A stretch of 36,781 nt of DNA from a virus, in the IMG/VR virus record IMGVR_UViG_3300020437_000023, positions 1 to 36,781 of that record. One strand, written 5' to 3'. Positions 4,808 to 23,433 of this stretch are shown here, in pieces. The notes under the pieces are model-generated. The model ran no database searches. It was not told the DNA's origin and was given only the letters and a program-made list of their open reading frames with translations. A program made the position numbers and the translations under genes. Positions within the stretch are counted from its first letter, which is position 1, and every line of letters begins with the position of its first letter.

Positions 4808-6315
4808 CATCATCAGTAAAGTCTGCCTCTGGGCTAAAACTAAAGACATACGCATATGAGAATTTTCAAGGACTAGACACGAGTAGAGATGTCACCTCCC
4901 TGGACACTGGTAAGGACCAACACCTTACCATTGTTGACAATGCTACTTGTGACTGGCGGGGTCAGATAGTGCGTGACCCCGCCCACAAATTTTTAGAGGG
5001 GCAACATCCTGTAAATCACATTGCCTTTTTTAACAAACAAGAAATTGTTTACGTTGAAGAAGATGGCGCGGCGTTAAACTTTAAATCAGAACGCGACCAC
5101 ACGCTGACTGGCGTGTATGATAAAGAAGAAGTTGTCTCATCTACAATATTTAACCAAATGGCTTTCTTCGCTGTAAGAGGTCAACCAGTTTATAGATATG
5201 ATGGTATCGTTTTTTCTAGCAACGAGTCACCAGCATTAAACGATTTAAGGCCAGCATATATGGCTTCAGTTCAAAGAAGACTAGCTGTTGCTGGCATCCC
5301 TGGACGAGAGACGGAGGTACATTTATCGAGAGTAGACCAAGACGAAATATTTCCAGACGACGAAGCTGACGATGAAACAAATGTCCTTCGTGCTGGGTTC
5401 TTCGACATCGCCAACCAGTTAGGTACGGCGGATCAGATAACTGGTCTTGGATCATTTGAACAAAACCAGTTGGTAATTTTTACAGCGGATAGGGCGTTAA
5501 TCTTTAGGATTGACCCTGACTTTACAAGATGGACAATAAACGACAGCGCGAACATACATATAGGTTGTGCCAGCCACAATACTATAGTGAACGCGGGGAC
5601 GGACCTACTTTTCTGCTCACGATCTGGTATTCACAGCATCAAACGAAGCGAAGAGAACGGCATCCTCGTATATTCTTACAGTCTCTCGGACAAGATAGAC
5701 CTCCTGTATCGAGAACTGTTCAACTCGGTAGAAAACCCAGAAAAGATTTCCGCCGTCTTTGACCAAGACGAGGGGCAGTATCATATATTCTTCCCGCAGA
5801 GTGGAGACTTTATCACAAGACGACTAACTTTGGCGCTCAACCCCGAAGGGGGTGACGCTCAACCAAAGTTTAGTACGGGTTCTTTTCTCAATCAAAGATG
5901 CGGTGCGTTCCTTAACGGGCGTTTTGTTGTTGGGACAGTAGGTGGTATCTACGATGTTTTTAAAGTTGAATCAGAAAAAGAGGGTGCGTTTACCCCCGAT
6001 ATGACTGTAACAACTCCACTACTCTGGCATGGAAGTTTGCAGAATACCAAGGAAACCCACAGCATTTTAATCCAAGCGGCTGGCAAAGGAACAATTACAG
6101 TCGATGCTCAAGACCAAAACGGAAAAGTCATTGGGGAAATGATTATAGAAGTAGATGATACAAAGGACGACAATTACTTTGTTGATGTGCCATTATCTCG
6201 TCAATACGAACGTAAGTGGCAACACCGTTATCTAGCGGCCCAGTATAGGTTTAGAAGCGCTGGTGGGCGCGGTCTTCTCAGGATTATCGGGTTTGCAATT
6301 ACAGTGAGGGATTAA
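4804..6315 (+). CDS. Putative tail tube / neck (stopper) protein
   Basis: This 503-residue protein starts at GTG 4804, overlapping the TGA of the adaptor gene. It is beta-rich throughout, with repeated short strands and turns (NFQGLDTSRDVTSLD, then an FDIANQLGTADQITGLGSFE stretch, and DLLFCSRSGIHSI). This fits the beta-propeller-like nozzle or stopper proteins found directly after the adaptor in podoviruses, as T7 gp12 or P22 gp10 are. It probably forms the short tail tube with the adaptor. There is no signal peptide or enzyme motif. The call is mainly from gene order and beta-rich composition. Confidence 0.6.
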   Translation: MTSSVKSASGLKLKTYAYENFQGLDTSRDVTSLDTGKDQHLTIVDNATCDWRGQIVRDPAHKFLEGQHPVNHIAFFNKQEIVYVEEDGAALNFKSERDHTLTGVYDKEEVVSSTIFNQMAFFAVRGQPVYRYDGIVFSSNESPALNDLRPAYMASVQRRLAVAGIPGRETEVHLSRVDQDEIFPDDEADDETNVLRAGFFDIANQLGTADQITGLGSFEQNQLVIFTADRALIFRIDPDFTRWTINDSANIHIGCASHNTIVNAGTDLLFCSRSGIHSIKRSEENGILVYSYSLSDKIDLLYRELFNSVENPEKISAVFDQDEGQYHIFFPQSGDFITRRLTLALNPEGGDAQPKFSTGSFLNQRCGAFLNGRFVVGTVGGIYDVFKVESEKEGAFTPDMTVTTPLLWHGSLQNTKETHSILIQAAGKGTITVDAQDQNGKVIGEMIIEVDDTKDDNYFVDVPLSRQYERKWQHRYLAAQYRFRSAGGRGLLRIIGFAITVRD

Positions 6316-6316
6316 G

Positions 6317-7879
6317 ATGGCAAGAATTAGACAACAGTACCCCCAAAATTATGGAAGTTCTGGTAACATAAACACTGAATTTGAATCAGTTATCAGATAC
6401 CTAAACGCCGCTGAGATTGGCGATAACACCATCGGGGAACTTCTAGGCAAAATTTTTGACAACGCTGGTAACTGGAATGGTCCAGTCGAATTTAGAAAAG
6501 ATAGTTCGTCTGGCATCCAATATAGAGTTGGCGAATATGCAAACGCCGACACTGGCTGGCAAACTCTTGCCACATTAGCCGAGCTTCGTGGCGAGGATGG
6601 TGCGCAGGCATCTGAAATCGGTGCGCCAATATTTTTTGGAAGAGTTGATTTCACACCTACGGCTGGACAAACAGAGTTTGAATATGCTCATTCAACGACA
6701 GACTCATTGTTGGTATACCAAAACGGTATATTAAAAGCAGAGGGCGCTCTTAATGATTACACCACAAGCGCTACTGGTGGGTCATCTGGTGCGGGGTCAG
6801 TTACATTTAACACGGGCCTTACAACAAGTGACTCTGTTACAATATTTAAAGTTCGATCAACTTCGATTACTGGGTACACACGCTCAGACACAGTGACGAC
6901 TGCAACACAGATTAACTTTCCATTTACTCATGATGAGAACACTAAGTTACAAGTTTACTTAAACGGTATTTTGCAGAAAGAAGGGGGAACAGATGACTAC
7001 ACCACAATCCCTGCGCAAAATGTTATTCAGTTTAATACAGGTGTGCCAGCGAACAACCTAGTTACCATAATCACAGTAGAGAACACTTCTGTCCAAGCTG
7101 TGACAGGTTTGATGTTTGAGGAAAACTTTGTCCACACGGATACGGGGTTAATTAAGTTTCCAAAACTCAGCATAGCTGATGGAGACATAGCTCAGGCAAA
7201 AGTTGCTAACCTAACATCAAGTCTAACAGAAAAAGCCAAAATAACAGTTGGATCGAATACACCGACAAACCCTGCCACTGGTGATTTATGGCACGATACA
7301 TCTATTAATCCAAATCAGTTGAAGTTTTATGACGGGACAATGTTCCTCAGAACTTCACCAGAATCTTCATTGCCTACTTTCCAAACAACTGATGCTGGTA
7401 AATTTGTTAAAGTTAATAATACTGGAACTTCTCTTGAGTATGGTAATCCTGATTTCTCAGGTCTTATCCCGATTAACCAAAAAGGTGCATCATCTGGCGT
7501 GGCCTCTTTGGATTCTCAAGGTAAGCTACCACAGAATCAGTTGCCAACAACTCTTGCATCGGACAGTTTTTACGCAATCATTACAACAGCCGCAAACAGC
7601 CCGTATGTAATTAAAAGAATTTTTAAACAAAAAATAACCATTGATGGTATTGCATTGCAAACTTCTACTGGTACTTGCTCGGTACAGATAGCAGTAGATG
7701 GGGTGGGTTACGGTGATGTCCATGCGGTGAGTTCTGTACCTACAGAAATATCTGCGCTAGGTTCAGTTATTGAGGTCAATGCAACATCTCAATCTCACAG
7801 CGTTGGATTTATTGTAACAAACAATAGCTCTGCTGGAAATCTGGAGGTGGTACTCGCAGTAGCAATATCCGCAGTTTAA
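6317..7879 (+). CDS. Tail fibre / appendage-like protein with tandem beta modules
   Basis: The 520-residue protein begins with a short helical virion-anchoring segment (about 1-60). At about 112-265 there are two tandem copies of an 80-90 residue module. Each copy has the form F-x-YxxxxxxLLVYQNGIL or KLQVYLNGIL, then DDYTT or NDYTT, a VxFNTG strand and a closing VTI strand. The middle is low-complexity Ser/Thr/Asn with a GDLWHDT..PNQLKFYDG segment like those in phage fibre shafts. The C-terminus is beta-rich. The likely role is host attachment, as fibre or fibre-anchoring protein. No chaperone or lyase motif is visible. The start is 1 nt after the previous stop. Confidence 0.7.
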   Translation: MARIRQQYPQNYGSSGNINTEFESVIRYLNAAEIGDNTIGELLGKIFDNAGNWNGPVEFRKDSSSGIQYRVGEYANADTGWQTLATLAELRGEDGAQASEIGAPIFFGRVDFTPTAGQTEFEYAHSTTDSLLVYQNGILKAEGALNDYTTSATGGSSGAGSVTFNTGLTTSDSVTIFKVRSTSITGYTRSDTVTTATQINFPFTHDENTKLQVYLNGILQKEGGTDDYTTIPAQNVIQFNTGVPANNLVTIITVENTSVQAVTGLMFEENFVHTDTGLIKFPKLSIADGDIAQAKVANLTSSLTEKAKITVGSNTPTNPATGDLWHDTSINPNQLKFYDGTMFLRTSPESSLPTFQTTDAGKFVKVNNTGTSLEYGNPDFSGLIPINQKGASSGVASLDSQGKLPQNQLPTTLASDSFYAIITTAANSPYVIKRIFKQKITIDGIALQTSTGTCSVQIAVDGVGYGDVHAVSSVPTEISALGSVIEVNATSQSHSVGFIVTNNSSAGNLEVVLAVAISAV

Positions 7880-7891
7880 TAAGGTAACTTA

Positions 7892-8356
7892 ATGAAAATA
7901 CGATACGCAAAGAAAAGTGATATAAAAATTGGAGTAGATTTAGGGGCAGTAATGTGGGCGGAAAGCAGTTTTATTTCATCCGACTACAGTAAGGAGAAGT
8001 TATACAAGTGGGCTGATAGCCTAATAGATGATGAAAATGGATTTGTTGCTGTTGCAGTGGACGACAATGACATACTTTTTGGTATGTACTTAGGGTGTTT
8101 AGAGCAACACTTCTTTGGGAACGATATTTATGCAAGGGATTATTTATGGTTTGTTGAACCATCAAAAAGAGGCGGAATGGCGGCAGTCAAACTTGTTAAG
8201 AAGTTTGAGGAGTGGGCTAAAGAAAAGGGAGCAACGGAGTTGCGTCCAGGTATATCGACAGGTGTATACATGGATAAAATCAAAGGTTTGTATGAGAGAC
8301 TTGGCTATGAACACGTTGGGTATCTCTTCAAAAAGCAGATAGAAAAGGAGGCATGA
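7892..8356 (+). CDS. GNAT-family N-acetyltransferase
   Basis: The 154-residue protein has a GNAT layout: beta1 at the start (MKIRYAKKSD), a helical region, then the acetyl-CoA motif A, a YLWFVEP strand followed by SKRGGMAAVKLV (about 84-102). In that motif RGGMA stands for the usual Q/RxxGxG/A loop. A C-terminal LYERLGYEHVG segment follows, the typical GNAT tail. It would transfer an acetyl group from acetyl-CoA to an unknown substrate. Acetyltransferases often lie next to tail and ejection-protein genes in marine phages. Modification of a virion or host protein is a guess. Confidence 0.8.
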   Translation: MKIRYAKKSDIKIGVDLGAVMWAESSFISSDYSKEKLYKWADSLIDDENGFVAVAVDDNDILFGMYLGCLEQHFFGNDIYARDYLWFVEPSKRGGMAAVKLVKKFEEWAKEKGATELRPGISTGVYMDKIKGLYERLGYEHVGYLFKKQIEKEA

Positions 8357-8357
8357 C

Positions 8358-10265
8358 ATGTGTGGTGGCGGCGGAGGTTCTAAACCCCCTGATTATACAG
8401 CTGAAAGAAATCAGCTAAAAGCGGATACGCTTGCAGATTATCAATCTCAAGCAGATGCGTATAACCAAAGTTTGGCGGCTTACAACGAAAGTGTGCAAGA
8501 CATACTAGATCAAGGTAGCGAATTGCAGAGTTCATTTGCTGGCGCAACTTACGATCAGTTGTATGATGACCCAACCACTTCTGTAAACGAGAGCCTTCTC
8601 GCTGGTGATCCTTTAAATACAGCCTCAGGATTGCAAGCACAGTTCGACGCATTGCAAATGCCAGAAAAACCTATATTCGATCCTGTTGTTATGGGTGAGG
8701 GAGGTATAGGTTCTGTCAGCATTGGCGCAAATGAAATGCCAACCCTTAACGAGGCAATGAATATAGACTCTTCTGGTTTTGGCGCTCAGTTAGATGAACT
8801 CGGTTCTACGATTGCTAATTTGCAAGCGCAAGGCGCGGCAGAGGAAGCGCGGCTTCAAGGTATCTACGATCAATACAATTTAGATACCGCAAACACAGCA
8901 TTTGATATTGGTCAAATGGGAATAGGTAGCAACCTTAATAGCTCATACAGAGATTTAAATACTCTTGAAGCTACCCTTGGCAATGTAAGAAGCCCAATCG
9001 CAGGCTTCATTGACTTTGATGGTGACGGCATTGCTGGTAACGAAGCTCAAAAAGCTAGAGATGCAATAAAAGGTTACAGGAGTTCTCTTGACGCTATAGG
9101 TGCGCAAACTGCGGCAGAGAACCAACGAATAGCTAATTTTGGTTCTGATCTCTACAGCGCTATTGACACGGGAAGAACAACCTTTGGTGGTTTAGCTGGT
9201 GATTATACTAAGCAAGCTGAAATTGACGCTCTTATGAATACCATCACGCAAAAAGAAAGAGAGATAAATAGGTTCAGTTCACCACTTGGGGGCGATTTTA
9301 GCGGTCAAAGGGCCGAGTTAAATGCTCTCAAACAACAACTACAAGGGCTTATAAACGAAGGAAACGTAGAGAGAGAAAGAGTATCTGACTTTATAGAAGA
9401 TCAAGCTGATGCTTACGAAGACCTTTTTAATACTGCTCAGGATACAGGTATTTACAGTCAGGCTGGGTTAGATGCTTTGGGCTTGGCGAGAGATAGGCTT
9501 CAGTATGACATAGACAACTTTAGTACGCCTTTTGGTGATACTCTCTACAATCCAGAAAACGTAGGCGGTTTTTATAGAGACCAAGCATTAAACGCAATAA
9601 CGGGTCTGGGTACTCGACGTCAGACCCAACTTGATGCAATATCAGATGCAATAGGTGGCGCGACTGCTGGTCTGGCTGATGTGCCTTTGTATGATGAAGA
9701 CGCTATACGTGATTACTACGATGCCTTAGATACTGCGGCTGGAGACTTTAGTAGGTTTTCTGGAGGCAGAGTAGATGAAATCCAAGCTGAAATTGATACT
9801 CAGAGAACAGCCATTGATAACCGAATCAATGAACTGAGGGCATACAGAAATACTCTTGAGGAAAACGCACAAACACTTCTTGAAGAGATAGAAAGTGGAT
9901 CGTACTACGCCCTTTCAGACCTAGATGATCCTGATGCTAGAGCTTTACAGATGGAAAAAAACATCGACCTTTACAATGCTCAACAAGCCTTGGACGAGAT
10001 TGCAGTAATCGAACAAAGGTTACAAGCGCAGAGATCAAGACTTGAACAGGACGCTCAGAATGTTGCTAACAGAACAGCAAGCGCTCAAGGTGCAATTCAA
10101 ATTGGGGCAGGCGGAACGCCAACATTCGGAAGGGCCGCTTTCTCAACGCCAACAGCCGCTTCAAACGTGGCTAGATATAACCCAACTGAGGAGGAAGAGG
10201 ACAACTACTTAGGTGGAAGAACCCCGTTTAGTTCGTCACTTGGGGCTATCCAGATAGGCGGCTAA
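8358..10265 (+). CDS. Internal virion protein-like, MCGGGG N-terminus, coiled coils
   Basis: This 635-residue acidic protein has an unusual MCGGGGGSKPPDY start, which I recall from internal or tail-associated proteins of marine podoviruses. The rest is Ala/Gln/Asp-rich, with long predicted helices and coiled coils (for example about 335-360 and 470-570) and Gly/Tyr-rich interruptions. A DFDGDGIAGNEAQ segment resembles an EF-hand-like Ca2+ loop (DxDxDG). The strong SD AAGGAGG (8346-8352) lies 5 nt before the ATG. Order and composition suggest the first of four ejected-type proteins. The Cys2 could be a lipidation or metal site, but there is no signal sequence. Confidence 0.6.
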   Translation: MCGGGGGSKPPDYTAERNQLKADTLADYQSQADAYNQSLAAYNESVQDILDQGSELQSSFAGATYDQLYDDPTTSVNESLLAGDPLNTASGLQAQFDALQMPEKPIFDPVVMGEGGIGSVSIGANEMPTLNEAMNIDSSGFGAQLDELGSTIANLQAQGAAEEARLQGIYDQYNLDTANTAFDIGQMGIGSNLNSSYRDLNTLEATLGNVRSPIAGFIDFDGDGIAGNEAQKARDAIKGYRSSLDAIGAQTAAENQRIANFGSDLYSAIDTGRTTFGGLAGDYTKQAEIDALMNTITQKEREINRFSSPLGGDFSGQRAELNALKQQLQGLINEGNVERERVSDFIEDQADAYEDLFNTAQDTGIYSQAGLDALGLARDRLQYDIDNFSTPFGDTLYNPENVGGFYRDQALNAITGLGTRRQTQLDAISDAIGGATAGLADVPLYDEDAIRDYYDALDTAAGDFSRFSGGRVDEIQAEIDTQRTAIDNRINELRAYRNTLEENAQTLLEEIESGSYYALSDLDDPDARALQMEKNIDLYNAQQALDEIAVIEQRLQAQRSRLEQDAQNVANRTASAQGAIQIGAGGTPTFGRAAFSTPTAASNVARYNPTEEEEDNYLGGRTPFSSSLGAIQIGG

Positions 10266-10276
10266 GGAGTTAGGAT

Positions 10277-11740
10277 ATGGGTTTTGGTGCAGTAGTCGGA
10301 GCGGGAGCAAGTTTAGCAGGCTCTATTTTTGGCGCTTCAACAGCGGCGAAGCAGGCTCAACGTGATCGTGAGTGGGCGAACTTTCGTGCCTCACAATCGC
10401 AGAACCTTGCTGACGCTCAATTTAATTTAAGTCTTGCTGACAGAAGATTACAGCAAGAAGAAAACGCCTATCAAAGAGTTATGAACTCATTGATGAGGCG
10501 GCAGGCTGGTCAAGAAAGACAGTTTCAAATCAATGAGCTTAACGCTTACAAGTCACAGTTACTAGAAGAGAGGGCCGCTGACATACGCCGTCAGGTAACT
10601 GAGGATAGAGCGGCGGCTAAACAACGTGAGTTTCAACTGCAACAGCTTTTGCGAAACCAAGAGTTGAGCGCACAAGAAAGAGCGTTTGCCTTGGAAGAAT
10701 TGAAGCGAGCGCAAGAGATAGCGTCTGGCGAAAGAGAAGAAGAGCTTGTTCGCTTCTATGAGGACAGGGCAGAAAAAGACATCGAAAGAGAATTTTATAT
10801 TTCTCAGATGGGTCAAGCCCGCCAGGACTACCAAGACGAGCGCGAATACGACCTCGGCATTAGAAATCGACTTCTGCAAAGAATGGACGAACTAAGCCAA
10901 ACGGCTCAAATGGCATACGATGAGTTGCCTATGGTCCAGCCACTAGCACAAGTAGATCAAAGAGATATTATGTCTGAAGCTCTGCGCAGAGAACAGCAGT
11001 ATGTAGCTGATGTTGACAGAGCCGCAGATCGAGTTGCGTCAGTTGGCGAAGCTGGCCTTATCCGCAGAGCTATGGATGAGAGTGACACCGCCACAGACGA
11101 AAGAGCTAGAATTGCCGCTCGTCTTGCGGGTGAGTATGCAGATGCGAGAAAGAGGGCTAGGGACGAAGCTACAAGTTACATTTCGGGGATAGCGGCGGCA
11201 AGAAACGAACCGATTATTCAACAGATGGCACAGAACCGAGACCGTATGGCTATGGCTACTGGAGCCGCTGAGGCTGGGATGAATTACTTTGCTCAGTTGC
11301 CTGGGGTTACATCTACTGTTGGTCAATATAATTTATTGGGAGCAACGCCTACTGGAATACTTGATAGGGATATTATGTCGGCAAACAATTACCGTTCGCC
11401 TGTAAACATTACCTCTGCTATATATGACGATATGAGAGTTGGTACAGGGTTAGCTGATTATAGAAGGCCATCCACCGCTAGTGACGCTGGGTTCTTTAAT
11501 GTAAGGTCTGCTATTTATGACCCATATAAGGCAACAGTTGGTAATTACAGCATTGGAAACCCAGCAGGCATTTATAACAATCTTGCCAGCGAGCAAAATA
11601 GAGTTGCTATATCATCAGCGGAAAATGCTAGAGAAGCAGGCAAAGGCGTAGGGTCTGCTATGAAGAACTTCTTCGATGAAGCAGGGTTCGAGCAAAGTCT
11701 CGACAAATGGTGGTCTAACAGAAATAAAGCAGGTATGTAA
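10277..11740 (+). CDS. Internal virion protein-like, glycine-rich membrane segment plus long coiled coil
   Basis: The 487-residue protein opens with a glycine-zipper-like hydrophobic helix (GFGAVVGAGASLAGSIFGA, about 2-20), of the kind that inserts in membranes. About 230 residues of highly charged, Gln/Arg/Glu-rich coiled coil follow. The C-terminal half is less charged and Tyr/Asn-rich. This matches the architecture of T7 gp14/gp15-type proteins that leave the capsid and line a channel across the envelope; the function is inferred. The SD AAGGAG (10264-10269) overlaps the stop of the preceding gene. The stop shares a base with the next ATG (TAATG at 11738-11742). Confidence 0.6.
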   Translation: MGFGAVVGAGASLAGSIFGASTAAKQAQRDREWANFRASQSQNLADAQFNLSLADRRLQQEENAYQRVMNSLMRRQAGQERQFQINELNAYKSQLLEERAADIRRQVTEDRAAAKQREFQLQQLLRNQELSAQERAFALEELKRAQEIASGEREEELVRFYEDRAEKDIEREFYISQMGQARQDYQDEREYDLGIRNRLLQRMDELSQTAQMAYDELPMVQPLAQVDQRDIMSEALRREQQYVADVDRAADRVASVGEAGLIRRAMDESDTATDERARIAARLAGEYADARKRARDEATSYISGIAAARNEPIIQQMAQNRDRMAMATGAAEAGMNYFAQLPGVTSTVGQYNLLGATPTGILDRDIMSANNYRSPVNITSAIYDDMRVGTGLADYRRPSTASDAGFFNVRSAIYDPYKATVGNYSIGNPAGIYNNLASEQNRVAISSAENAREAGKGVGSAMKNFFDEAGFEQSLDKWWSNRNKAGM

Positions 11741-13677
11741 TGGATTTTTCACAATGGTACTCAGGCTGGGAAGAGCGCGAAAAGTATAATACTCGCCAAC
11801 GGCGAGATTTTGCTAAAGCGTTTGAGACCTTTAAAAAAGACAACCCTTACGCTACGTTCAAGGACTATCAGGATTATATTGACCAGATGGCGGGTGGGTC
11901 TAACTACATACGTGGTGGCGCACCAAGCCAAGACGTTCTAAGAAACATGGCTAGTGAGAACGCAAGAAATCTTGCCGCAAAAAGAGCAAAAGAAGCGCAT
12001 GACGCAAAGCTCCGTGAGTTTGATCGTTTAAAATTATATCAAGAAATGGCACAGCCATTCCTTATGGGTGGCAAGCCAGGCGAAATAGATAAAAGAAAAG
12101 AAGAGTTTTATGGCTCTATTGGCGAGGTCAGTCCGTTAGTCAAAGGCGCATTGGACAATTACTTTTCAGAGAGCAACTATATGGGACAGCAGGGTCAGAT
12201 GTTGCTTGGCAAGGTAGATCAAGCGGCAAATTACCTAACTCGTGTTGGTGGTAAGGTTGAGAACAAAGAACAGTTTGCTCAGTTGATGGGAGTGCAACCT
12301 CACTTTGTCGATCCGCTAATTAATATGGCAAACTCAGAATATGAAAAAAGAAGGAACGACCACTGGTTAGATAAGACAGGTGTTCTTGAGGACAGGGTTG
12401 TAAAACTTGCCGCAAGAGGTGGGGACATTGACGCATTTATAAAAGATACTGAAGAAAATGGTATCTATAAAATGACAGAAAACTTAAAAACAAATTTAAG
12501 GTCTATTTTTGATTCAGAAGAATCCAGACTAGATGACGAAGTATCGCAAAAAGCGGCAGAGGCGTTTAGGAATATCCGAACTGGCATGGACACAGATCAA
12601 GACTTTATGGTTGGTTTATTAAACGATGGATATGATGAAATTCTTGCGAAAGTAAAAAATCGTTTTGTAAATCAAATGTCGCCAGATCAATTTATGAAAC
12701 ACTTTGGTTCCCCGCCAAACGAGGTAGGCGACACAAAGTTTAAAGCCATTGCCGACGAATTAATTAGAATTGCTCAGAATACTCAGTCGGCTCAAAGAAC
12801 AAAAGCCCAAGACGAAGTTAAAGCAACAGTTACAGGTGATGTTACTGAAGCTATTAATCAAAGATTTGACCAGGGCGTGAAGGAACTTTCTAAAGCTAAC
12901 ATCTATAATAACGACGAAAGCCCTGCAAAGACTGTTCAAGTCTTTCAACAAATCGCTCAAACCTTTTATCCCAGCCCAGCAGTGCAGAGCAGATTGCTTG
13001 AGATAGTAACCGAGTTTGAGGATCGTAGTGGGGACAACTGGTCTGCACAACAGCTTTATGCGAAAGCTTTGCAAGATAGCAGTATGCAAAGACTTCTAAA
13101 ACGCCAAGACCAGTACAGTCAGGAAAGAGTTGATAAAGCTATAGAGTTACGAGGTGGCTACGACATCTCTACGTTTAAAGAATGGATAGACGGATTTTCT
13201 GACCTTCAAGACAAAAGACTTCAAGCATATGGTCAATATGACACCATGATTGAACAAAACGCAATGGCTAATATTCCATTGCCGCCCGCTGGTTCTGACA
13301 GAAAAGAAGTTCTTGATGCAGAAATGAAACAAATTGCATATAAAGTCCAAGAGTTCGAGAAATTCCAAGCCGAGATTGAAGAAAAACTTAGAGAAGCTAA
13401 CATGGATTGGAACAGCAGAAGAGAGCGCTCTCAGGGTCCAACATCTTGGCTCAAGACTGGCACAAAAGATTCTCGATGGAAAGACAACGAGGCTAATGAT
13501 GCAAGGGCCACATATCAAAGAGGGTATGGAGAGTTGCTCGAATTTATCAGAGCAAAAAAAGAAGAGATGAAAAACCAATATCTACAGCTAGAGGAAGAAG
13601 CAACCGATTTATTAGAATTTAATCCTGAGATGAGACCGAACGCTATAGTTAGATTATTAAGTGATCTGTTCAATTAA
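11740..13677 (+). CDS. Internal virion protein-like, helical
   Basis: This 645-residue soluble, strongly helical protein has charged coiled-coil stretches (Lys/Glu/Asp/Gln-rich) through most of its length. No signal peptide, membrane segment or catalytic motif is recognised. It sits between the 487-residue protein and the 3230-residue giant. By analogy with the T7 gp15-gp16 order it is probably an ejected core protein. The motif ERSQGPT near residue 565 is shared with the scaffold, including 15 identical bases at 13429-13443. Translation is coupled to the preceding gene by TAATG. Confidence 0.6.
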   Translation: MDFSQWYSGWEEREKYNTRQRRDFAKAFETFKKDNPYATFKDYQDYIDQMAGGSNYIRGGAPSQDVLRNMASENARNLAAKRAKEAHDAKLREFDRLKLYQEMAQPFLMGGKPGEIDKRKEEFYGSIGEVSPLVKGALDNYFSESNYMGQQGQMLLGKVDQAANYLTRVGGKVENKEQFAQLMGVQPHFVDPLINMANSEYEKRRNDHWLDKTGVLEDRVVKLAARGGDIDAFIKDTEENGIYKMTENLKTNLRSIFDSEESRLDDEVSQKAAEAFRNIRTGMDTDQDFMVGLLNDGYDEILAKVKNRFVNQMSPDQFMKHFGSPPNEVGDTKFKAIADELIRIAQNTQSAQRTKAQDEVKATVTGDVTEAINQRFDQGVKELSKANIYNNDESPAKTVQVFQQIAQTFYPSPAVQSRLLEIVTEFEDRSGDNWSAQQLYAKALQDSSMQRLLKRQDQYSQERVDKAIELRGGYDISTFKEWIDGFSDLQDKRLQAYGQYDTMIEQNAMANIPLPPAGSDRKEVLDAEMKQIAYKVQEFEKFQAEIEEKLREANMDWNSRRERSQGPTSWLKTGTKDSRWKDNEANDARATYQRGYGELLEFIRAKKEEMKNQYLQLEEEATDLLEFNPEMRPNAIVRLLSDLFN

Positions 13678-13740: not shown

Positions 13741-16700
13741 ATGGCAGACAGAGACTTAGGGATTAAGTACAACCCTGGTCAAGCTGATGATCCATTCACA
13801 GCTGATAATGACTATACAACAGACCTTCGTGGTAAAAATCCATTATATGACCCCCGCGTAATTGCTGATCTTCGCGCTCACTACAATGAGTTAGGTCACA
13901 ATGTTCAAGGCATGACTGACGAGGAAATCGTTGACGAGTTTTATTCTGATAAAACTTGGGGAAGCCTTAACACTATGGGTGGCGCAAAGCGTTTGTATGA
14001 GTCAACCCAACTAAGCGATGAAGGTAAACATCGCCTTATGCGGTTAAATAAAGTCTACGAAAGAGCGCCACAATTCTGGGAAGAAGGCGGACGAGGCTGG
14101 CTTAGTGCCTTGTCATCAGGTGCGGGTGCCATCCTTCTCGACCCCATAAATTTAATTCCTTTTGGTAAAGCGTTCCAAGCTGGAGCAGGCGCATATAAAG
14201 CGGGTAAAACTGGTTGGCAAGCGGCGAGGGCTGGTGCTGGAAGAGGCGCAATATACGAGGGCGCTATAGGTGGTGCGCATGAAGGCATCATGGCAACAAT
14301 GGAGGAGAACGAAAGGAAGAACCTCGGATACCAAAGAGAAGTAGATTTAGGAAATATAGCAAGTCGAACAGCGTTAGGTACAGCTTTCGGTATGGGAACT
14401 GGTACGGTTCTCGGTGGGATCGCTGGGCGAACAGGATATGATAGTCGTGTTGGTGAAATTTTTGGAACAACAGGCGCACAACAAGCGGAAGCTGGTCGTT
14501 TTGCTGGAATGACAGACGACGAAATCGCCCGAATGACACACAAAGAGGGTGAAGAGTTAGTCAAAAAATATAAGTCTGGAGAACTTGTAGAGGGGTCGGC
14601 ACGTTCAGCAGATCAAGCTCTTGACGCTGACGGTACGGACCCAACCGCCCCAACAGAACCAGAGTTGTCCCCAGACGAAATAAAAATGGTGGACGAAAAA
14701 TCTCAGATTGAGGCCGCTATTGCAGAATATGAAACCGCTGAAACAAACTTAAGGCGCGATAATGTTGACGGCTCTCTCGATGCACAAATCCAAGAAGCAA
14801 GAGAGCAGATCGCGGCTCTACAAACTCTTAGTAACTTTGGTCAAAGAGTTGAGTTAAAGAAAAAACAAATAGATGACCTTGCAACAAACGTCCCCAAAGA
14901 ATCTGCTGAGTTCCAAAAACGTGTTGCTGAATATAACGAAGCGTACTCCAATTACAGATACGCTATAAGCTCTATTGGTAAGCCTGAGTTTAACGATGTT
15001 ATGAAAGACATCGTTCGTGGCCTAGACCTTGAACCACCAAAGGTAGATGCAGAAGGACCAGAAGTACCCAAAGCTCCTGGGGGAGAAACAGAGGTAGGGG
15101 TAGAAAAAGGAACTGGCGGACAAGAAGACCCCAAAGTTGGAACAGGAACGCCAGAATTAGGAGAGGCTAAGGGTGGCGGAGAAGGTAGCCCAACTCTGGA
15201 GGGTGGGATTGATAATCCTCCCGAAGTGCAAGTGGATATTCCCTACCTCAACACGAAACAAGTACAAAAAGTACAAAAAGAAATACTGGAGCCATACGGC
15301 ATTACCGAAGCCGAGCTTAAAGTTATTTTAGATGACCCTGCTAACGGTGTCGTGTCTCGATCTGGAGGCAGTGTAAACTCTGGGAAGATAACTAATCAGA
15401 CCATTAAGGAAATTAAGGAGCATTTGGATGGCAAGAAGAAACCTGTTGTTGAGGATGCTCCTGAGATTGATGCTACGCCTCCTAAGGAACCTGAGCCGTC
15501 AGCCGTATCCGCAGAGTTAAGAGGATACGCTCTTGCTCAAGGGATAGACCCAAACAAATTGAAACCCGCTGGGAAAAGAACAGTTGTTTCTAAGACTCAG
15601 ATAGATAAGGAAGCCGCTAAAGCTACAGCAGAAGATGATTACGCAAGGAAAGCGTATGAGGAGCTTGCCAGAATTAGCGACATGTTTGGTGACGGAGAGG
15701 TTGATGTAAATGTTGCAGAGGCGGCAATCAGAGCTATTGCCAACGATGACAGCATTACGACACCAGCCGACGACCTCATTGCGCTTCGCAGGCATTTAGA
15801 CAGTCTCCCAGACGAGTTTGTTGAAGAGAGCGTACCGCCGACAGAACTTACACAAACACAAAAGAAAAAAATTAGAGCAAGGAAATCGACCCTTAAAAAG
15901 CAATTCCCTGGCCTTACAGATGATGCGGCAGAAACAATGGCAAGATCACAAGTCTTGTCGCAAGGTCCAGAGACACCAATTCGCGGAACAGGAGAAGCAA
16001 TAGGAGAAGCCGCTAAGTTTACAACGGCAGGCTTGTCAAACAATGGTCGTATCCAAGGATTGCTTAGACGCGGAACTCGAATAGGTAAAGGCTCTGACTA
16101 CACTGTTACAGGTAAAAGCCCAAGACGAAACGAGTTTGGCTTTGAGGCCGCACTTATTCGAGCAAGGTCTGGCAATGGTCCTGATGTTGTTGAATATGAA
16201 ACAATGGGTAAGGAAAAAATACTTACTCGAAGTGGACCAATAGAGGTTCCGAAAGGGACTGTTGCTTATGCCGATGCTGTATCTGGCAGAGCTTTTGACA
16301 CTCTTGAGTTTGCCTTAGAGTTTAGGGATGGCGGAAAACCATCCCCTACTCGTCTTGGCGAATACAATTCTACAGCGCCAGCAGATCAGCCAACAAAAAC
16401 GCCAATAGACTTAGCTGGAATACTTGAGAAACATAAAGATAATCCAGCCGAGCTTATAAAAATATTGGAAGCGGCGGTAAGAAAAACCGAGCCTACATCA
16501 GAAACACCAGACACCAAGACGATAGCAACGATCCCGCCACAGAAGGGGGATCATATTGCTGTTGTCAGAAGTATGGATGATCCAAATGATGTAAGGATGC
16601 TTAATCCAAACACCCAAGAAGGTCAGGATATAAGTGTTGTTATCGGCAAAAGCGGACCAAAATCTGATCCATCAAGATGGGAGGTCAGATATGCGCCAAG

Positions 16701-19700
16701 AGACCGTTATACAAATAGACCAAAAGACAGAGCGAGATTATTTGACAGTCTACCGCCAGAACCTAATCAGGGTGCAACATCAAAAGGCAACCCGATAAGA
16801 GGGTTTAGATACGAAGCTGGTTTGGCTACTGGCATGGGTGAGCCAGTATCTATGAGTGATATGGGCAAGATTAAGCTAACCGAAGAAATGCTTACCCCAG
16901 CCCTTCAAAACGCAACTATATATGCGTATGGAAGCAGAGCGCCAACATTAGATACAAACACTACTGCTTCAGATATTTTCTCTATTACCAAAGCGATTGA
17001 GACCCAAAGGTGGCAGAGAAAAGTAGAGTCAAATGCCAAGACAGCTATGCACCTAGAAAACCTCTACGGGGTGTTACATAGAATGGCCCCAGAGGGTTTT
17101 ATAGCTGACAGCACAACAAGAGCGCAGTCTATTGAAGAACTTAAAGCAGTATTTTCAAAAAGATCACAACCAGAGTTAGATGATGCGCTAGATTTTTTAA
17201 ACAGTCTCGGTGGTGATCGAGGCATAGGACCGAGTTTTAAATCTAATAGGTCTGGCAACTATCATAATACTGAGATAACTAGAGGCTCTGGTGTTAGAAG
17301 CCATATAAACCTAGATCATAAAGAAGGGTTGACTATCAACCCGCAAAACACTTTTTATCATGAGGTTGCTCACTGGGCATACGACAACATTCTGACCCCT
17401 TCAGATAAGATAGACTTCTGGAAGGCGATGAACAAATACTATGATGAGGGCGGAAACCTAGATAAAGACGCTATCCAAAACAAATTAGCAAGTTATGGTG
17501 GCATGGAGTATGAACATGAAATACTCGGCACTCAAAAGTTTGGTGGCGGAAACTCTATGTCAAGTCCGCAAGAACTTTTTGCAAATCAATTTGATATTTG
17601 GGTAACAAGAAAAAGACATTTTGCTGGGACAGATACATTCTGGCAGAAAATAAACAGGTATGTGAAGGCTATTATTCAGAGATATGCCAAAGATGCTGAG
17701 ATTGACCCAGACTTAGAAAAATTATTTTCTAAAATATTACCTGATACAGAACGTCCTAAGTTTAAGTTGGGGGCAGATGCTAAACCAACAACTGATTATA
17801 CCAAGCATATTAACAAACGCTGGACAGAACTTAGTCTTATAAGGGAAGACCTAGAGGATGCTCTGCATAGGGACAGTGCAAGCGGTATTGTCCAAGCAAC
17901 GAGAGACCTTGTAGGTTTTATGCTGTCTGTAGCGCCTCGATACAGCAAGAAAAAACTAGCTGAGATGAGTGCCGCTGGACTTCCTGTGTCCAGAACCTTT
18001 GGCCCATTCGACGGCAGACGAGGTATGCGCAGAACTATCCATGATCGGATAGACGATCTTACAGAAATACTGTCTGGCAAGAACACTGACTGGGACGGAA
18101 TAACAGGCAAGACAGACGAGACTGCTGGCTACTACGATGATGGCCTTAGTCTTGGTGCAGACGAGCAAGATGTAGCCGATCTAATCAGAGACTTCTGGGA
18201 GAATGGATATAACGGTAAGTACAAGCCAAGCCGAGGTATAAGTCCTGGGGCTGAGAAAAAGATGGAAAACACATCTCTTTCTAAAACTATGGACAATATG
18301 AAAAATGCGTTAGAGGCACATTACAACGCTAAAGAACTTGGCAAGATGCCTGGAGACAGGCCCGCAACTGAACCCAAGACGACTCCTAGAGGAAAGGCAA
18401 ACTCAGCGGTTCGTAAGAAAAAGAAACTTGATGCTAGATCAAAGAAAGCTGTAGACAACGAGGCAAAAAATATAGCTAAAACACCTCCGTCAAAGAGGAA
18501 GAAAACAAATAAGCCTAAAGTTACAGACAGCAATGCCCCTGACATTAAGGAGAAAAACCCTGACGAACTCAGGAAGTTGTATGTAGAACACAGAGGTACA
18601 GAGTTTGGCGACCAGATAGCAATAGAGTTGCTACGAAAAGAAAAAGCTATTCCGCCACCTAAAACTGTCAAAGTTACTAGGGAGATAATGTCTCTGGGCA
18701 AAGCTGACCTAGAACAAAGATACCTTGACGCTCTGGAATTAAATAACTCCAAAGACATAGACATGATTTTGAGTGAGTTGCGCAGACGACACGCTAATAA
18801 GGGTTTGAAGAAGGGCGACCCAGGCAAGATAACAGCAACATTTATCCAGAAGAGCGGACTGCTACGAACTGAAATCAATGACAATAGAGGTATCTCTACT
18901 CATGACGGCGTTCCGTCTTATGCGCGGGCATCGGTTAGAGAGCTTCTAGGAACCATTACCCATAGAGACCCAGAGATAGAATATACAGCGAGAACCATGA
19001 CCTATCGTATGCTGAATATGATGGGCAAAACACAGCAACAAGCTATCGGAAGAATGAATATATTTAGTTCAGAAGATTTGGCTCGTCTTGCTGGCGAACA
19101 GCCTGGGGCAACAGATACTCCTTTGTTTGCTGATTTGCGTGGGCCTCACTTTAAAAAATTAAGAAGTGATATGCGTAGGTTAAGCGTTGGTTTAACTAAA
19201 GGAGAAACATCTCCTTACGACATTATTCATGAAATAGGGCATATGTTGGTTCGTGCCAATGTCATGCCTGACGAAGAGATGACTGCTATTCGTGAACTTT
19301 ACATGAAAGCAGATGATCCTGTTAAGAAAAGAGTGCAAAGCAAATATGGTGCTAAATATGTAAACAGAGATGACCAAACTCAGGACGCACTTTTGGCAGA
19401 AGAATGGTTTGCAGAGAGCCTTACAGAATACATGGCTGAACGTGTAGCTAGAGGCGACATAATAAATTCTGTGGTTACTGGCGATGTCAGTAAGATTAGG
19501 CTCAGAAATACTTTTGAACGAGCGTTAGACCGTATGGTGGAATACATGGCATACACAGTTAACGGTCTTATCGGAAGGAACGACATCAAACAACAATTCA
19601 GAAGGCTGGCGCTTTATGGAGATATGTTTGAAGCTGATGATAAATTCCCTCTAAAAAATATGGTCCGATCTGGTCCAGCCATTCACCCATCTTTAGCGTC

Positions 19701-22700
19701 AGACGCGGTAAAAGACTATGTGATGGCTACCCCAAGAGCGAAGCGGGAACAAATGATGGATTTTGTCAGGGGCGGTATCAGTCACAATGAAGGTATGGAT
19801 GACATCATTCCATACTATCACGGCACACCTAATGGTTATGCCTTCAACAGAAATACAAACCCTAATGTCGTCTTGCGTCCAAGCACTATAGGCTTCTATG
19901 GACCAGGGACTTACTTAACCGACAGTCCTGTTGCGGCTTCTGGAACTTACGCGAAGAAGCCAACGCCAGAAAGTATGCGTCAGCAAATTATGGATACTGA
20001 TTTAACAGATGAGCAAAAAGAAGAGCTTATCTACGAAGCAATGGATTTGCATGAAATCAGAAAACAAATTTCTAAAGCAAGACGAAACTACTGGTTAGCT
20101 GAAAGTGTTGGCGACAAAGACGCGATCCAAAAGTATAAAGAAGATTTGGATGAGATGGTTGATGCAGAAGAAGCTATACAAGATGCGCTTGGAGAAGCAG
20201 GCATAAAAGCTGACCCTATGGTTATTCCAACCGTTGTTAACGTGCGCAACCCAATAGACTTTAGAGAGACCGCATCTTACACAACTGCTGACGACAATGC
20301 GGTTAGGGCAATCCTAGATTACCTTAATATGACAGACAGCCTTGAGCAAAATGCGTTAGGAAAATTTGCTTCTGCTTTTGAAGATGGTCCACTTAACGGT
20401 AAACAAATGTACCTATCTCTTATCGAGCTACTAAAAGGCTCTGGCAGAGGTGGTCGTAGGGCGCAATCTGAATTGAACGGAGTTCTCGAAGACGTTGGTT
20501 ATGACGGCATGTTGACAACGCATTACAATACTCAAGATGCGGCTGGTAACATTCCTAGAATGGCTAATGGAGAAACATATGAAGGTGTGCAAATACCCCA
20601 CACTGGCGTAGTCGTCTTCGATATTGGAAACGTCAAGCATATTGATGCGAATGAATTTGACACATCCGATCCTCGTTTATTCAAAAGAGAAGACATGGCT
20701 ATCCCTAAAGGTTTAAATGGGGAAGTCCTTAATATGATTACCGAGGGTGATATAGATGGTGTCGCAGACATACCTTCTGGCATGGTTGGGGACATTCTTG
20801 AGGTAAACCATGTAGATAGAAGTATTACATCCGCTATTATGTCTATCGGAAAGAAGAGACCGCTAGATGTAAGAGAAGAACAAGCTCTCAAAAAAGCTAC
20901 ACCTATGGGGCTATGGAGTTCTCAGTCTACAGCCATGAGAGATATTGGCGCTAAGTGGACTGGAGACTGGTTTGAAAACCATTTCCCTGATGTCCACCAA
21001 AGGTTTGCAAAAACATATATGCCACTGAAAAGATTGATGGAAGAGCTTCCTGACGCAAAAGGATATGTAGGATCATGGTTCGAGCGTGGCCCAAGAACGC
21101 TACTTTCACCATTGTTGCCTAGACAACTAAAAGCTAAACAACCAAAAAGTCATGCAAAGATTGTTGGAGCTTTAAGATTTGGTACTGGCTCTCGTCAATA
21201 CGCTGAACTAACCAATCAAGAGAAGAAAGTTTACCAAGCTGTGCGCGGTGCTTTCGATCAAGAGTGGGTTAAGATGAATGAGCTTGGGATATTCGTTGGT
21301 AAAAGAGAAAATTATCTACCTCAAATTTGGGATAAAGAAAAAATAGTTAGCAATGAACCCAAGTTTATAGCGGACATGATGGAGTATTATCAATTAGAAG
21401 GCACTAGCCTTGGCATTGTTAGAACCTCAGATGAGGCAAGAAAATTCGCGGACGAAATTTTTATACGCCTTACAGCCGACGATGCTGATGGACACTTTAT
21501 GCCACAAAAAGCTGGATCAAGAAATTCTGTATCAGACCACATAGATCATGGGCGTGTACTGGAGCTTGAAAAGTACCCACTTAGCATGGCAAAGCTACAA
21601 GATTTCCTAGAGGATGATCTTGACGCATTGCTTGTCAAGTATTTTGACGGGACATCAAGACGAGTAGCGCAGACAGAACAGTTTGGCGTAAACGCTCATG
21701 GTTTCTATGACTACATGTTTATAGCAGAAAAAGGTAGGCAAGCGATAGCAGACCTTCTCAGCAAAAACAAAACATTTAGAAAGAACTTCAGCGCACTGGG
21801 CGAAGAAGGACACATGGAAGATGTCACCTTGGACGATCTTGTTGTAATGCCTTTCGCTGGCAAACCCATGATGGCTACAAGGTTTGTATCCGCATTGGTC
21901 GCAGAGCAGTTGAAGAACGGATCAGCTGGTGTGGAGAAAATGCTAGACGATGTTGCTGTTACAGGATTTGGCGGCGTAGTTCCTCCAGCATACACAAGAC
22001 GAAAAGAAGCAATCGTCGCGGCACTGAGAGATTTTAATGGAGAAAAGGCTCAGTGGGATAATGGCACGTTTGACTTTATGGAAAATGCTCTTCGAGTTGC
22101 CCAGAAGAAACCTCAGGTTGGCGGTTTCTCAAACAAACTTAACAGAACGTCAAAGGTACTAAGAGGGATTAACTCTGTTACATTGCTTGGTTGGACAACA
22201 CTTACATCGTTGCCTGACACAGCCCTACCAATAATCCGATCTGGTTCAATAAAAGATTGGGCAAAAGGTATCTATAAATATAAGAATGATCCAGAGTTTG
22301 CCCGCATGATACAGAATGTCGGTGTGGCTATAGAGAATATTGTCCACGAAAGACAACTTCATATGTATGGCGCAATAGATGGCAAGATGACTAACGCCTT
22401 CTTTAACGCAACAATGCTTACACCTTGGACCGATCTTAACAGAAAGATTGCCGCCGCTACTGCATACGAAAGTTTCAAGTCGATGCAAGCAAAAGCCGCT
22501 AAGTCATATCGAAAAGATTTAGGCAACCTGGCAAACCAAACAACGGAATACAAGACGGCACACAGATATTTAATGAAGGTTGGTCTTGGAGACTTTCTCC
22601 CAACGGGTTCTCGTCGTGGCGAAAACATTAGCAATCCTCGCTTGCTAGAAGATGATCCACAAGTAAGAACAGCGGTGATAAGATTTGCAAATCAATCCGT

Positions 22701-23433
22701 ATTCCAGCCTAACGTAGATGATATGCCGTTGGCGTGGCAAACTCCATTCGGGGCTATTGTAACTCAGCTTAAATCGTTTCCTCTTATGATGCACAGATTG
22801 TTTATGCACACAGTTAACGAAGCATTTGGCGTAACAAAGGCAGATGGCACAGCGGGTAAACTCACACTTAACTTTAATAAAGCAAACAAAAACTTTGCAC
22901 CCCTCGCTTATCTACTAACACTTGGACCTCTTGCTGGTGCGGGAGCTTTGGGTGTCAAAGACGTTATCCAAATGAGAGGTGGCGAAGAAGAAAAAGAAAT
23001 GGCGTTCAGAAAAAGATCAGCCGCGAAGTTTCTTGGCTTCAAAGAAGAACAACATGGAGACATTGATAAGTTTCTCGGTTGGTACTTAGAGGGCATGATG
23101 GCGATGGGCGGTCTGGGCATCTTAGCTGACCTCTTCCACACTACGTCACAGCAAATAGATAACGCCGCCTATGGTCGTGAGCGTATAATGAGTACGCTTC
23201 TAGGTCCATCATACGGTCTTGCAACTACGGGTATAAACATTACCGCAGGCATAACTGATGCTGTGTTTGACAGAACAAAATCAAACGCAAAAGAACGCAC
23301 AGCGGTAAGAGATGCGGTAGCAAGAATACCAGTCCTCGGAGGAAATAGAGCCTTTAGAGAAGGAACGGTAACTGCAATCGCTGGAGAACCAACGGGCAGA
23401 AAAGGGAAAAGAAAAATACCTGATTGGTATTAA
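13741..23433 (+). CDS. Giant polyvalent-type internal virion protein: two metallopeptidase-like segments and an ART-like segment
   Basis: The 3230-residue protein takes up about a quarter of the window. From N- to C-terminus: membrane-active Gly/Ala-rich helices (about 121-165 and 211-231); an acidic Gly/Pro linker (434-495); HEVAH at 1207-1211 with a downstream SSPQELFAN Glu at 1278. Next come a Lys-rich linker (about 1551-1605) and HEIGH at 1830-1834 with EEWFAES at 1887-1893. An ADP-ribosyltransferase-like segment follows: YYHGT at 2025-2029, GPGTYLTD at 2054-2061, and a later VVVFDIGNVK strand. A long helical region and hydrophobic stretches near 3052-3071 and 3118-3132 complete it. This matches the polyvalent-protein theme (MPTase-PolyVal, ART-PolyVal, LPD domains) of phage proteins carried into host cells. 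Its place after the ejected-type proteins supports packaging. Enzyme activity is inferred. Confidence 0.75.
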   Translation: MADRDLGIKYNPGQADDPFTADNDYTTDLRGKNPLYDPRVIADLRAHYNELGHNVQGMTDEEIVDEFYSDKTWGSLNTMGGAKRLYESTQLSDEGKHRLMRLNKVYERAPQFWEEGGRGWLSALSSGAGAILLDPINLIPFGKAFQAGAGAYKAGKTGWQAARAGAGRGAIYEGAIGGAHEGIMATMEENERKNLGYQREVDLGNIASRTALGTAFGMGTGTVLGGIAGRTGYDSRVGEIFGTTGAQQAEAGRFAGMTDDEIARMTHKEGEELVKKYKSGELVEGSARSADQALDADGTDPTAPTEPELSPDEIKMVDEKSQIEAAIAEYETAETNLRRDNVDGSLDAQIQEAREQIAALQTLSNFGQRVELKKKQIDDLATNVPKESAEFQKRVAEYNEAYSNYRYAISSIGKPEFNDVMKDIVRGLDLEPPKVDAEGPEVPKAPGGETEVGVEKGTGGQEDPKVGTGTPELGEAKGGGEGSPTLEGGIDNPPEVQVDIPYLNTKQVQKVQKEILEPYGITEAELKVILDDPANGVVSRSGGSVNSGKITNQTIKEIKEHLDGKKKPVVEDAPEIDATPPKEPEPSAVSAELRGYALAQGIDPNKLKPAGKRTVVSKTQIDKEAAKATAEDDYARKAYEELARISDMFGDGEVDVNVAEAAIRAIANDDSITTPADDLIALRRHLDSLPDEFVEESVPPTELTQTQKKKIRARKSTLKKQFPGLTDDAAETMARSQVLSQGPETPIRGTGEAIGEAAKFTTAGLSNNGRIQGLLRRGTRIGKGSDYTVTGKSPRRNEFGFEAALIRARSGNGPDVVEYETMGKEKILTRSGPIEVPKGTVAYADAVSGRAFDTLEFALEFRDGGKPSPTRLGEYNSTAPADQPTKTPIDLAGILEKHKDNPAELIKILEAAVRKTEPTSETPDTKTIATIPPQKGDHIAVVRSMDDPNDVRMLNPNTQEGQDISVVIGKSGPKSDPSRWEVRYAPRDRYTNRPKDRARLFDSLPPEPNQGATSKGNPIRGFRYEAGLATGMGEPVSMSDMGKIKLTEEMLTPALQNATIYAYGSRAPTLDTNTTASDIFSITKAIETQRWQRKVESNAKTAMHLENLYGVLHRMAPEGFIADSTTRAQSIEELKAVFSKRSQPELDDALDFLNSLGGDRGIGPSFKSNRSGNYHNTEITRGSGVRSHINLDHKEGLTINPQNTFYHEVAHWAYDNILTPSDKIDFWKAMNKYYDEGGNLDKDAIQNKLASYGGMEYEHEILGTQKFGGGNSMSSPQELFANQFDIWVTRKRHFAGTDTFWQKINRYVKAIIQRYAKDAEIDPDLEKLFSKILPDTERPKFKLGADAKPTTDYTKHINKRWTELSLIREDLEDALHRDSASGIVQATRDLVGFMLSVAPRYSKKKLAEMSAAGLPVSRTFGPFDGRRGMRRTIHDRIDDLTEILSGKNTDWDGITGKTDETAGYYDDGLSLGADEQDVADLIRDFWENGYNGKYKPSRGISPGAEKKMENTSLSKTMDNMKNALEAHYNAKELGKMPGDRPATEPKTTPRGKANSAVRKKKKLDARSKKAVDNEAKNIAKTPPSKRKKTNKPKVTDSNAPDIKEKNPDELRKLYVEHRGTEFGDQIAIELLRKEKAIPPPKTVKVTREIMSLGKADLEQRYLDALELNNSKDIDMILSELRRRHANKGLKKGDPGKITATFIQKSGLLRTEINDNRGISTHDGVPSYARASVRELLGTITHRDPEIEYTARTMTYRMLNMMGKTQQQAIGRMNIFSSEDLARLAGEQPGATDTPLFADLRGPHFKKLRSDMRRLSVGLTKGETSPYDIIHEIGHMLVRANVMPDEEMTAIRELYMKADDPVKKRVQSKYGAKYVNRDDQTQDALLAEEWFAESLTEYMAERVARGDIINSVVTGDVSKIRLRNTFERALDRMVEYMAYTVNGLIGRNDIKQQFRRLALYGDMFEADDKFPLKNMVRSGPAIHPSLASDAVKDYVMATPRAKREQMMDFVRGGISHNEGMDDIIPYYHGTPNGYAFNRNTNPNVVLRPSTIGFYGPGTYLTDSPVAASGTYAKKPTPESMRQQIMDTDLTDEQKEELIYEAMDLHEIRKQISKARRNYWLAESVGDKDAIQKYKEDLDEMVDAEEAIQDALGEAGIKADPMVIPTVVNVRNPIDFRETASYTTADDNAVRAILDYLNMTDSLEQNALGKFASAFEDGPLNGKQMYLSLIELLKGSGRGGRRAQSELNGVLEDVGYDGMLTTHYNTQDAAGNIPRMANGETYEGVQIPHTGVVVFDIGNVKHIDANEFDTSDPRLFKREDMAIPKGLNGEVLNMITEGDIDGVADIPSGMVGDILEVNHVDRSITSAIMSIGKKRPLDVREEQALKKATPMGLWSSQSTAMRDIGAKWTGDWFENHFPDVHQRFAKTYMPLKRLMEELPDAKGYVGSWFERGPRTLLSPLLPRQLKAKQPKSHAKIVGALRFGTGSRQYAELTNQEKKVYQAVRGAFDQEWVKMNELGIFVGKRENYLPQIWDKEKIVSNEPKFIADMMEYYQLEGTSLGIVRTSDEARKFADEIFIRLTADDADGHFMPQKAGSRNSVSDHIDHGRVLELEKYPLSMAKLQDFLEDDLDALLVKYFDGTSRRVAQTEQFGVNAHGFYDYMFIAEKGRQAIADLLSKNKTFRKNFSALGEEGHMEDVTLDDLVVMPFAGKPMMATRFVSALVAEQLKNGSAGVEKMLDDVAVTGFGGVVPPAYTRRKEAIVAALRDFNGEKAQWDNGTFDFMENALRVAQKKPQVGGFSNKLNRTSKVLRGINSVTLLGWTTLTSLPDTALPIIRSGSIKDWAKGIYKYKNDPEFARMIQNVGVAIENIVHERQLHMYGAIDGKMTNAFFNATMLTPWTDLNRKIAAATAYESFKSMQAKAAKSYRKDLGNLANQTTEYKTAHRYLMKVGLGDFLPTGSRRGENISNPRLLEDDPQVRTAVIRFANQSVFQPNVDDMPLAWQTPFGAIVTQLKSFPLMMHRLFMHTVNEAFGVTKADGTAGKLTLNFNKANKNFAPLAYLLTLGPLAGAGALGVKDVIQMRGGEEEKEMAFRKRSAAKFLGFKEEQHGDIDKFLGWYLEGMMAMGGLGILADLFHTTSQQIDNAAYGRERIMSTLLGPSYGLATTGINITAGITDAVFDRTKSNAKERTAVRDAVARIPVLGGNRAFREGTVTAIAGEPTGRKGKRKIPDWY

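Follow-up and report, generated by a model that had tools for sequence, protein, structure and literature searches.

The window analyzed here, an IMG/VR virus record taken in full (36,781 bases), comes from a CRP-810-type temperate podovirus and contains one open reading frame of 3230 codons (positions 13741–23433, + strand), whose product is likely to be a gp16-like large ejection (internal virion) protein with a predicted zincin (MP1), a second zincin-like site (MP2), and an ADP-ribosyltransferase (ART) of the ART-PolyVal type in the middle of the chain. By joining zincin-like and ART domains to an ejection-type C-terminus, the giant protein has the architecture of a polyvalent protein, i.e., several unrelated effector domains in one chain, as a preliminary description of this DNA had proposed. 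The positions given there for the ORF and for the motifs HEVAH (residue 1207), SSPQELFAN (1274), HEIGH (1830), EEWFAES (1887), YYHGT (2025), GPGTYLTD (2054), and VVVFDIGNVK (2290) were all correct.

The other genes recognized in the window encode a major head protein, a holin, an endolysin, a Cas4-type exonuclease, a Sak4-like annealing protein, a primase-polymerase, a RusA-like resolvase, and an integrase, and the gene order is that of the isolate CRP-810, on which a family of temperate marine phages was founded (PMC11288001). As neither a portal nor a terminase gene was identified within the window, the record is probably incomplete. The giant ORF occupies a late structural position, after the tail genes and immediately upstream of the holin and endolysin genes, and the same is true in CRP-810. 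Three ORFs upstream of it (635, 487, and 645 aa; 8358–13677, + strand), which are syntenic with CRP-810 gp39–gp37, are by their position candidate partner ejection or tail proteins; family searches with these three gave no informative match. Also within the virion gene block is an acetyltransferase gene (7892–8356, + strand; phrog_1249, 2.5e-29), whose counterpart in CRP-810 is gp40 (GNAT family) and which may have a role in virion or tail modification. A 2OG-Fe(II) oxygenase gene (1–690, + strand; PF13759, 1e-18) is truncated by the left end of the record.

Alignment conservation and hydropathy delimit an N-terminal domain (residues 1–240; 13741–14460, + strand), and the equivalent ORF in CRP-810 is annotated as "internal virion protein D". 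It is followed by a poorly conserved linker (residues 241–1033; 14461–16839, + strand). In the family alignment, this linker past residue 240 is the least conserved region, and MP2 and the C-terminal part show the highest conservation. Membrane-active helices had been suggested near both ends of the protein. We found mild, Gly/Ala-rich hydrophobic peaks at residues 121–139 and 211–229 in the N-terminal domain and at 3052–3070 and 3111–3129 near the C-terminus, but their Kyte–Doolittle averages of only 1.1–1.5 do not correspond to a classical transmembrane helix. The Pfam scan of the whole 3230-aa protein gave no matches, nor did a scan of linker residues 241–580, and nothing convincing was found among PDB sequences either by phmmer with the whole protein or with profiles of MP1, MP2 plus ART, ART, and the C-terminus. 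The two HExxH motifs compare with 0.06 per protein expected from composition, and their conservation among relatives, given below, speaks against a chance occurrence.

The C-terminal ejection-type domain (residues 2370–3230; 20848–23430, + strand) shows some of the highest conservation in the protein. It matches phrog_6958, a virion structural protein (5.9e-8), and gave tblastn matches to Escherichia phage TL-2011b and Aeromonas phage phiA008. By hhalign, the C-terminal 860 residues aligned with a 1004-aa protein of TL-2011b (98.6%, E 7e-16, 581 columns) and with a phiA008 protein (98.7%, E 4e-16), in each case over more than 550 columns and with scores of 132–138, compared with a maximum of 26.4 for shuffled controls. 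The TL-2011b protein, which shares this region but is itself without HExxH or ART motifs, is a member of phrog_342 ("internal virion protein with endolysin domain"). It is this homology to an internal virion protein that marks the giant as gp16-like; the link to the T7/epsilon15 gp16-like group is drawn via TL-2011b. Together with the match of the ART model to a pre-ejectosome protein described below, these results support the virion-associated context assumed in the preliminary description.

The ART domain (residues 1990–2330; 19708–20730, + strand), which carries an inserted helical stretch at about residues 2090–2150, contains H2027 (in YHGT), Y2058 (in GPGTYL), and D2255 (in GYDG), all three of them invariant across a 24-row alignment. 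The active site of ART-PolyVal (PF18760) consists of a histidine on strand 1, a tyrosine on strand 2, and an aspartate on strand 5 (Iyer et al. 2017), and the window protein has this same H-Y-D set, which D2255, unnamed in the preliminary description, completes. The PF18760 profile matched 11 of 17 members of a first alignment (best 2.6e-8) and 19 of 24 in a wider one (best 1e-9), the window segment among the latter. The window segment itself scored 21.3 bits (E 4.8e-4), under the curated cut-off of 31.2, whereas in a whole-record scan the relatives L085 (39.7) and L018 (38.4) cleared it; CRP-810 gave 6.3e-5 in that scan, and the published prototype RPP1, as positive control, gave 1.5e-11.

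An AlphaFold2 (AF2) model spanning MP2 and ART had an overall pLDDT of 69.7, with values mostly between 80 and 93 across ART. In VIA-align, the best PDB fold match of the ART model was to residues 1418–1601 of 9k3a_B (Z 9.7); PARP catalytic domains came next, near Z 6.5, amid unrelated helical rows. Foldseek against the PDB gave no significant match for either the ART-containing model or the MP1 model, so that the informative fold comparisons are the VIA-align second look and a viral library. The chain 9k3a_B is A4L_27, a 1717-aa pre-ejectosome protein of cyanophage A4 (Anabaena phage A-4L), so that an ART-like domain of this shape is already known from the ejection machinery of a different podovirus. 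The YHGT, GTYF, and GVDA motifs of A4L_27 are in register with the triad of the giant (profile score 31.7; shuffled maximum 24.4), and it matches PF18760 weakly (E 0.0035). It differs in having no HExxH, and its remainder shows no detectable relation to the giant. Its gene (L162, 20116–25269, minus strand) is annotated as "tail protein", with the ART-like segment at residues 1425–1590. Profile, triad, and predicted fold support the assignment of the ART segment to the ART-PolyVal clade, and enzymatic activity is predicted from it.

MP1 (residues 1034–1345; 16840–17775, + strand) has its predicted zinc site at HEVAH 1207–1211 (17359–17373), with E1278 (17572–17574) as putative third ligand. When its AF2 model (pLDDT 74) was compared by VIA-align with 793 re-aligned PDB chains, the top three were all HExxH zincins, with modest Z values of 5.2, 4.8, and 4.3 and the next chain at 2.8; the closest solved folds include the catalytic domain of a zincin that cleaves host proteins. 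The viral library returned three significant matches (E 1.7e-12, 5.3e-9, and 6.5e-6), all of them phage proteins that bear the name "large polyvalent protein associated domain". The model thus supports a zincin-like fold for MP1, from which zinc binding and proteolysis are predicted. MP2 (residues 1720–1990; 18898–19710, + strand) contains HEIGH 1830–1834 (19228–19242) and the putative third ligand E1888 (19402–19404). As at MP1, HExxH and a downstream glutamate are both present and conserved in relatives, but the MP2 part of the AF2 model was helical and of low confidence. Of the two metallopeptidase-like segments proposed earlier, MP1 is therefore backed by a predicted fold and by polyvalent relatives, whereas MP2 is partly supported as zincin-like, by a complete conserved motif and weak profile links; structure prediction was informative for ART and MP1 and gave no confident model for MP2.

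The profile links of MP2 lead to the 2050-aa protein of Aeromonas phage phiA008, which has a homologous C-terminus and a HELGH…EWFADQF site resembling both MP1 and MP2. It differs from the giant in having a single zincin-like site, and no ART motif was found in it. MP2 scored 36.0 against its HELGH region (shuffled maximum 29.5), and the MP1 Glu helix likewise scored 36.0 against the HELGH…EWFADQF site (shuffled maximum 24.7). That one site resembles both is consistent with duplication of a single ancestral zincin, although it is not proof. In direct comparison, MP1 and MP2 gave an hhalign score of 29.1 (P 0.003), just below the 29.5 attained by shuffled controls against MP2, and because of this weak score we put forward a duplication as a suggestion only.

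Two further profiles, from families named in the preliminary description, gave no match. PF18818 (MPTase-PolyVal) had no match in the window protein, which tells little because the model was equally silent on N4 and RPP1, members of a virion RNA polymerase (vRNAP) group that always carries MPTase domains (Iyer et al. 2017). PF18857 (LPD38) matched nothing in the window or in 23 related records; as it matched nowhere, it was uninformative. The impression that two peptidase-like copies in one protein are unusual was not supported, since Iyer et al. (2017) report more than one MPTase copy for about 8% of the polyvalent proteins that carry this domain and RPP1 has two HExxH motifs.

The giant is a single frame of about 2900–3400 aa in dozens of related marine viral contigs, and the family numbers about 270 members. 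Among the 73 relatives covering both MP1 and MP2, both sites are kept in 26, MP1 only in 36, MP2 only in 11, and neither in none. L085 is an example of an MP1-only relative and L087 of an MP2-only one. Counting all four residues, HExxH plus E1278 is intact in 62/73 and HExxH plus E1888 in 37/73, and E1278 is also gone in the single clade without the MP1 site. A tree of 55 representatives, computed from the C-terminal part of the protein, places a single loss at MP1 and about four at MP2; the clade without MP1 retains MP2 in 8/8 representatives. The absence of a double loss is not significant (2dlnL 1.9 for 2 df; 66 of 211 comparable simulations were likewise without one), since the losses number only about five in all. 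For this reason we treat a requirement for one active zincin as a hypothesis and do not claim a constraint.

The H-Y-D triad is intact in the large majority of relatives. One distant clade (L188, L196, L198, L171, L175–L177, L195, and L200) has HYE, HHE, or HHQ in its place together with an inactivated MP2, so that MP1 is its sole fully intact site. Two other relatives, L166 and L169, are without the YHGT motif and without the MP2 HExxH, and L166 retains MP1 only. An alphaproteobacterial MAG contig (L028, 1–3290) encodes a shortened relative of 1095 aa in which residues corresponding to about 2120–2758 are missing, possibly a prophage remnant.

Among the closest known systems is CRP-810 itself, a phage of Roseobacter CHUG (OR671924; PMC11288001), whose gp36-gp35-gp34 are homologous to the giant over nearly its whole length, with 33–49% identity depending on the piece and the same gene order. 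It differs in that the homologue lies in three overlapping ORFs, annotated as "internal virion protein D" and hypothetical, with the former label on the N-terminal piece only; the main text of the paper does not mention peptidase, ribosyl, or polyvalent (PMC11288001). The frame breaks (L005, 17799–17845 and 23770–23835) may reflect real gene fission or sequence error, and at the second, located at the ART/C-terminal boundary, a 31-bp stretch in tandem duplicate shifts the frame. In another relative (L076, IMGVR_UViG_3300046167_000237), the giant is also in three frames, with breaks at 4633–4922 and 7769–7893. These differ in place from those of CRP-810 and are likely small indels, because homology runs on across them. 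Given these different positions, the tandem duplication, and the continuous homology in L076, we dropped gene splitting as a family trait.

The vRNAP of Roseovarius Plymouth podovirus 1 (RPP1; CBX87992.1; L236, 434–11716, minus strand), the ART-PolyVal prototype and, like the window protein, a giant of a Roseobacter podovirus, shares the ingredients of one ART (YHGT 1028, GYDG 1118) and two HExxH motifs (1291 and 2520). However, it is an N4-like RNA polymerase protein with another domain order, and as a single sequence it gave no significant profile match to MP1, MP2, ART, or the C-terminus. N4 gp50, the virion RNA polymerase, follows the same logic of an ejected protein with a membrane N-terminus, an enzyme, an HExxH in C1, and a large helical C2, but it has the polymerase in place of the ART, and again no significant profile match was obtained. 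No T7-like, single-subunit RNA polymerase domain was detected in the giant by the whole-protein Pfam scan or by profile comparison with N4 gp50 and RPP1 vRNAP. An identity as N4-type vRNAP was dropped on these grounds; formally, a very divergent polymerase could lie in the linker. The polyvalent class and the list of ingredients, as in RPP1, are thus already known. What is new is the carrier, a podovirus ejection-type C-terminus without a detected polymerase, and the finding that the ART is near family-wide in a podovirus group while the zincin sites alternate by repeated loss.

We propose that the C-terminus common to other podovirus ejection-type proteins serves as a scaffold for a protein that carries enzymes in its middle. 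The giant would travel in the phage head and pass into the cell when infection begins. The model of T7 gp16 has a membrane region on each side of a part projected into the cytoplasm; by analogy, the Gly/Ala-rich segments near both ends of the giant would sit in the inner membrane, with the zincin and ART region facing the cytoplasm. There, a zincin would cleave either the giant itself or a protein of the host, and modification of a host target by the ART would favor the incoming phage. In addition to the C-terminal homology and the gene order, the ART profile and fold, the MP1 fold with its polyvalent relatives, and the published models for polyvalent proteins, T7 gp16, and N4 vRNAP argue for this ejection reading. 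We counted against it the low confidence of the MP2 fold, the silence of PF18818, the lack of a significant Foldseek match, the mildness of the hydrophobic stretches, the restriction of the "internal virion protein D" label to the N-terminal piece in CRP-810, and the altered ART residues or absent YHGT in some relatives.

What the zincins would cut allows two readings, and the weight given to each does not compete with the ejection carrier, because both are sub-cases of it. A self-processing peptidase, which would cleave the giant either inside the head or once it has entered the cell and so separate the ART from a membrane-bound ejection domain, is a serious candidate, if short of an even chance. 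Self-processing has been put forward for polyvalent MPTases, and P1 DdrB is cleaved before packaging (Iyer et al. 2017); in agreement with this idea, at least one complete HExxH plus glutamate is found in 73/73 relatives, and one of the CRP-810 breaks falls at the ART/C-terminal boundary. On the other hand, N4 vRNAP is packaged unprocessed (Iyer et al. 2017), no cleavage site was identified, the tree lends no statistical significance to the retention of at least one site, and the CRP-810 breaks may be sequence errors. That the zincins are instead effectors, which cleave host proteins or open an envelope path for the ejectosome without cutting the giant, seems to us somewhat unlikely. The host-protein-cleaving zincin among the closest MP1 folds points in this direction, as does T7 gp16, which has its envelope-acting enzyme within the ejected protein, and the lineage-wise loss of one or the other site would fit changing targets; yet the MP1 fold match is modest, and a shared fold shows no function. 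A more demanding version of the model gives an RNA-polymerase-free gp16-like carrier two duplicated zincins together with an ART. At least one of the zincins would have to remain active, and obligatory proteolysis in or after ejection would release the ART, with each lineage using one copy; we regard this version as doubtful.

Two readings depart further from an enzyme-bearing ejection protein. The enzyme-like segments could for the most part be structural remnants, with no catalysis, in an ejection protein that forms a channel, in line with the losses of catalytic residues at MP2 and MP1, the HYE/HHE/HHQ clade, and the ability of TL-2011b to manage with the C-terminal region and no HExxH. This is improbable, as the triads persist at deep divergence, with MP2 retained throughout the MP1-less clade and H-Y-D intact in most relatives. 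Even less probable is that the giant has its role not as a virion component but once it is expressed in an infected cell or a lysogen, where superinfecting phages might be its targets: the phage is temperate and has an integrase, and polyvalent domains have been suggested to counter other elements as well (Iyer et al. 2017), but the gene lies in the late structural block and its product shares its C-terminus with internal-virion-type proteins.

Under the preferred reading of an enzyme-bearing ejection protein, the CRP-810 isolate and its cultured host FZCC0198, the conserved H-Y-D triad, and lineages that naturally have one zincin site allow a direct test of whether a polyvalent peptidase cuts its own carrier or the host. 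A published survey put the share of siphoviruses and podoviruses with an ART at only about 3% (PMC9503650). If the reading is true, ADP-ribosylation at entry would extend to nearly all members of a podovirus group, and the virions of this phage family probably carry its tools for taking over the host.
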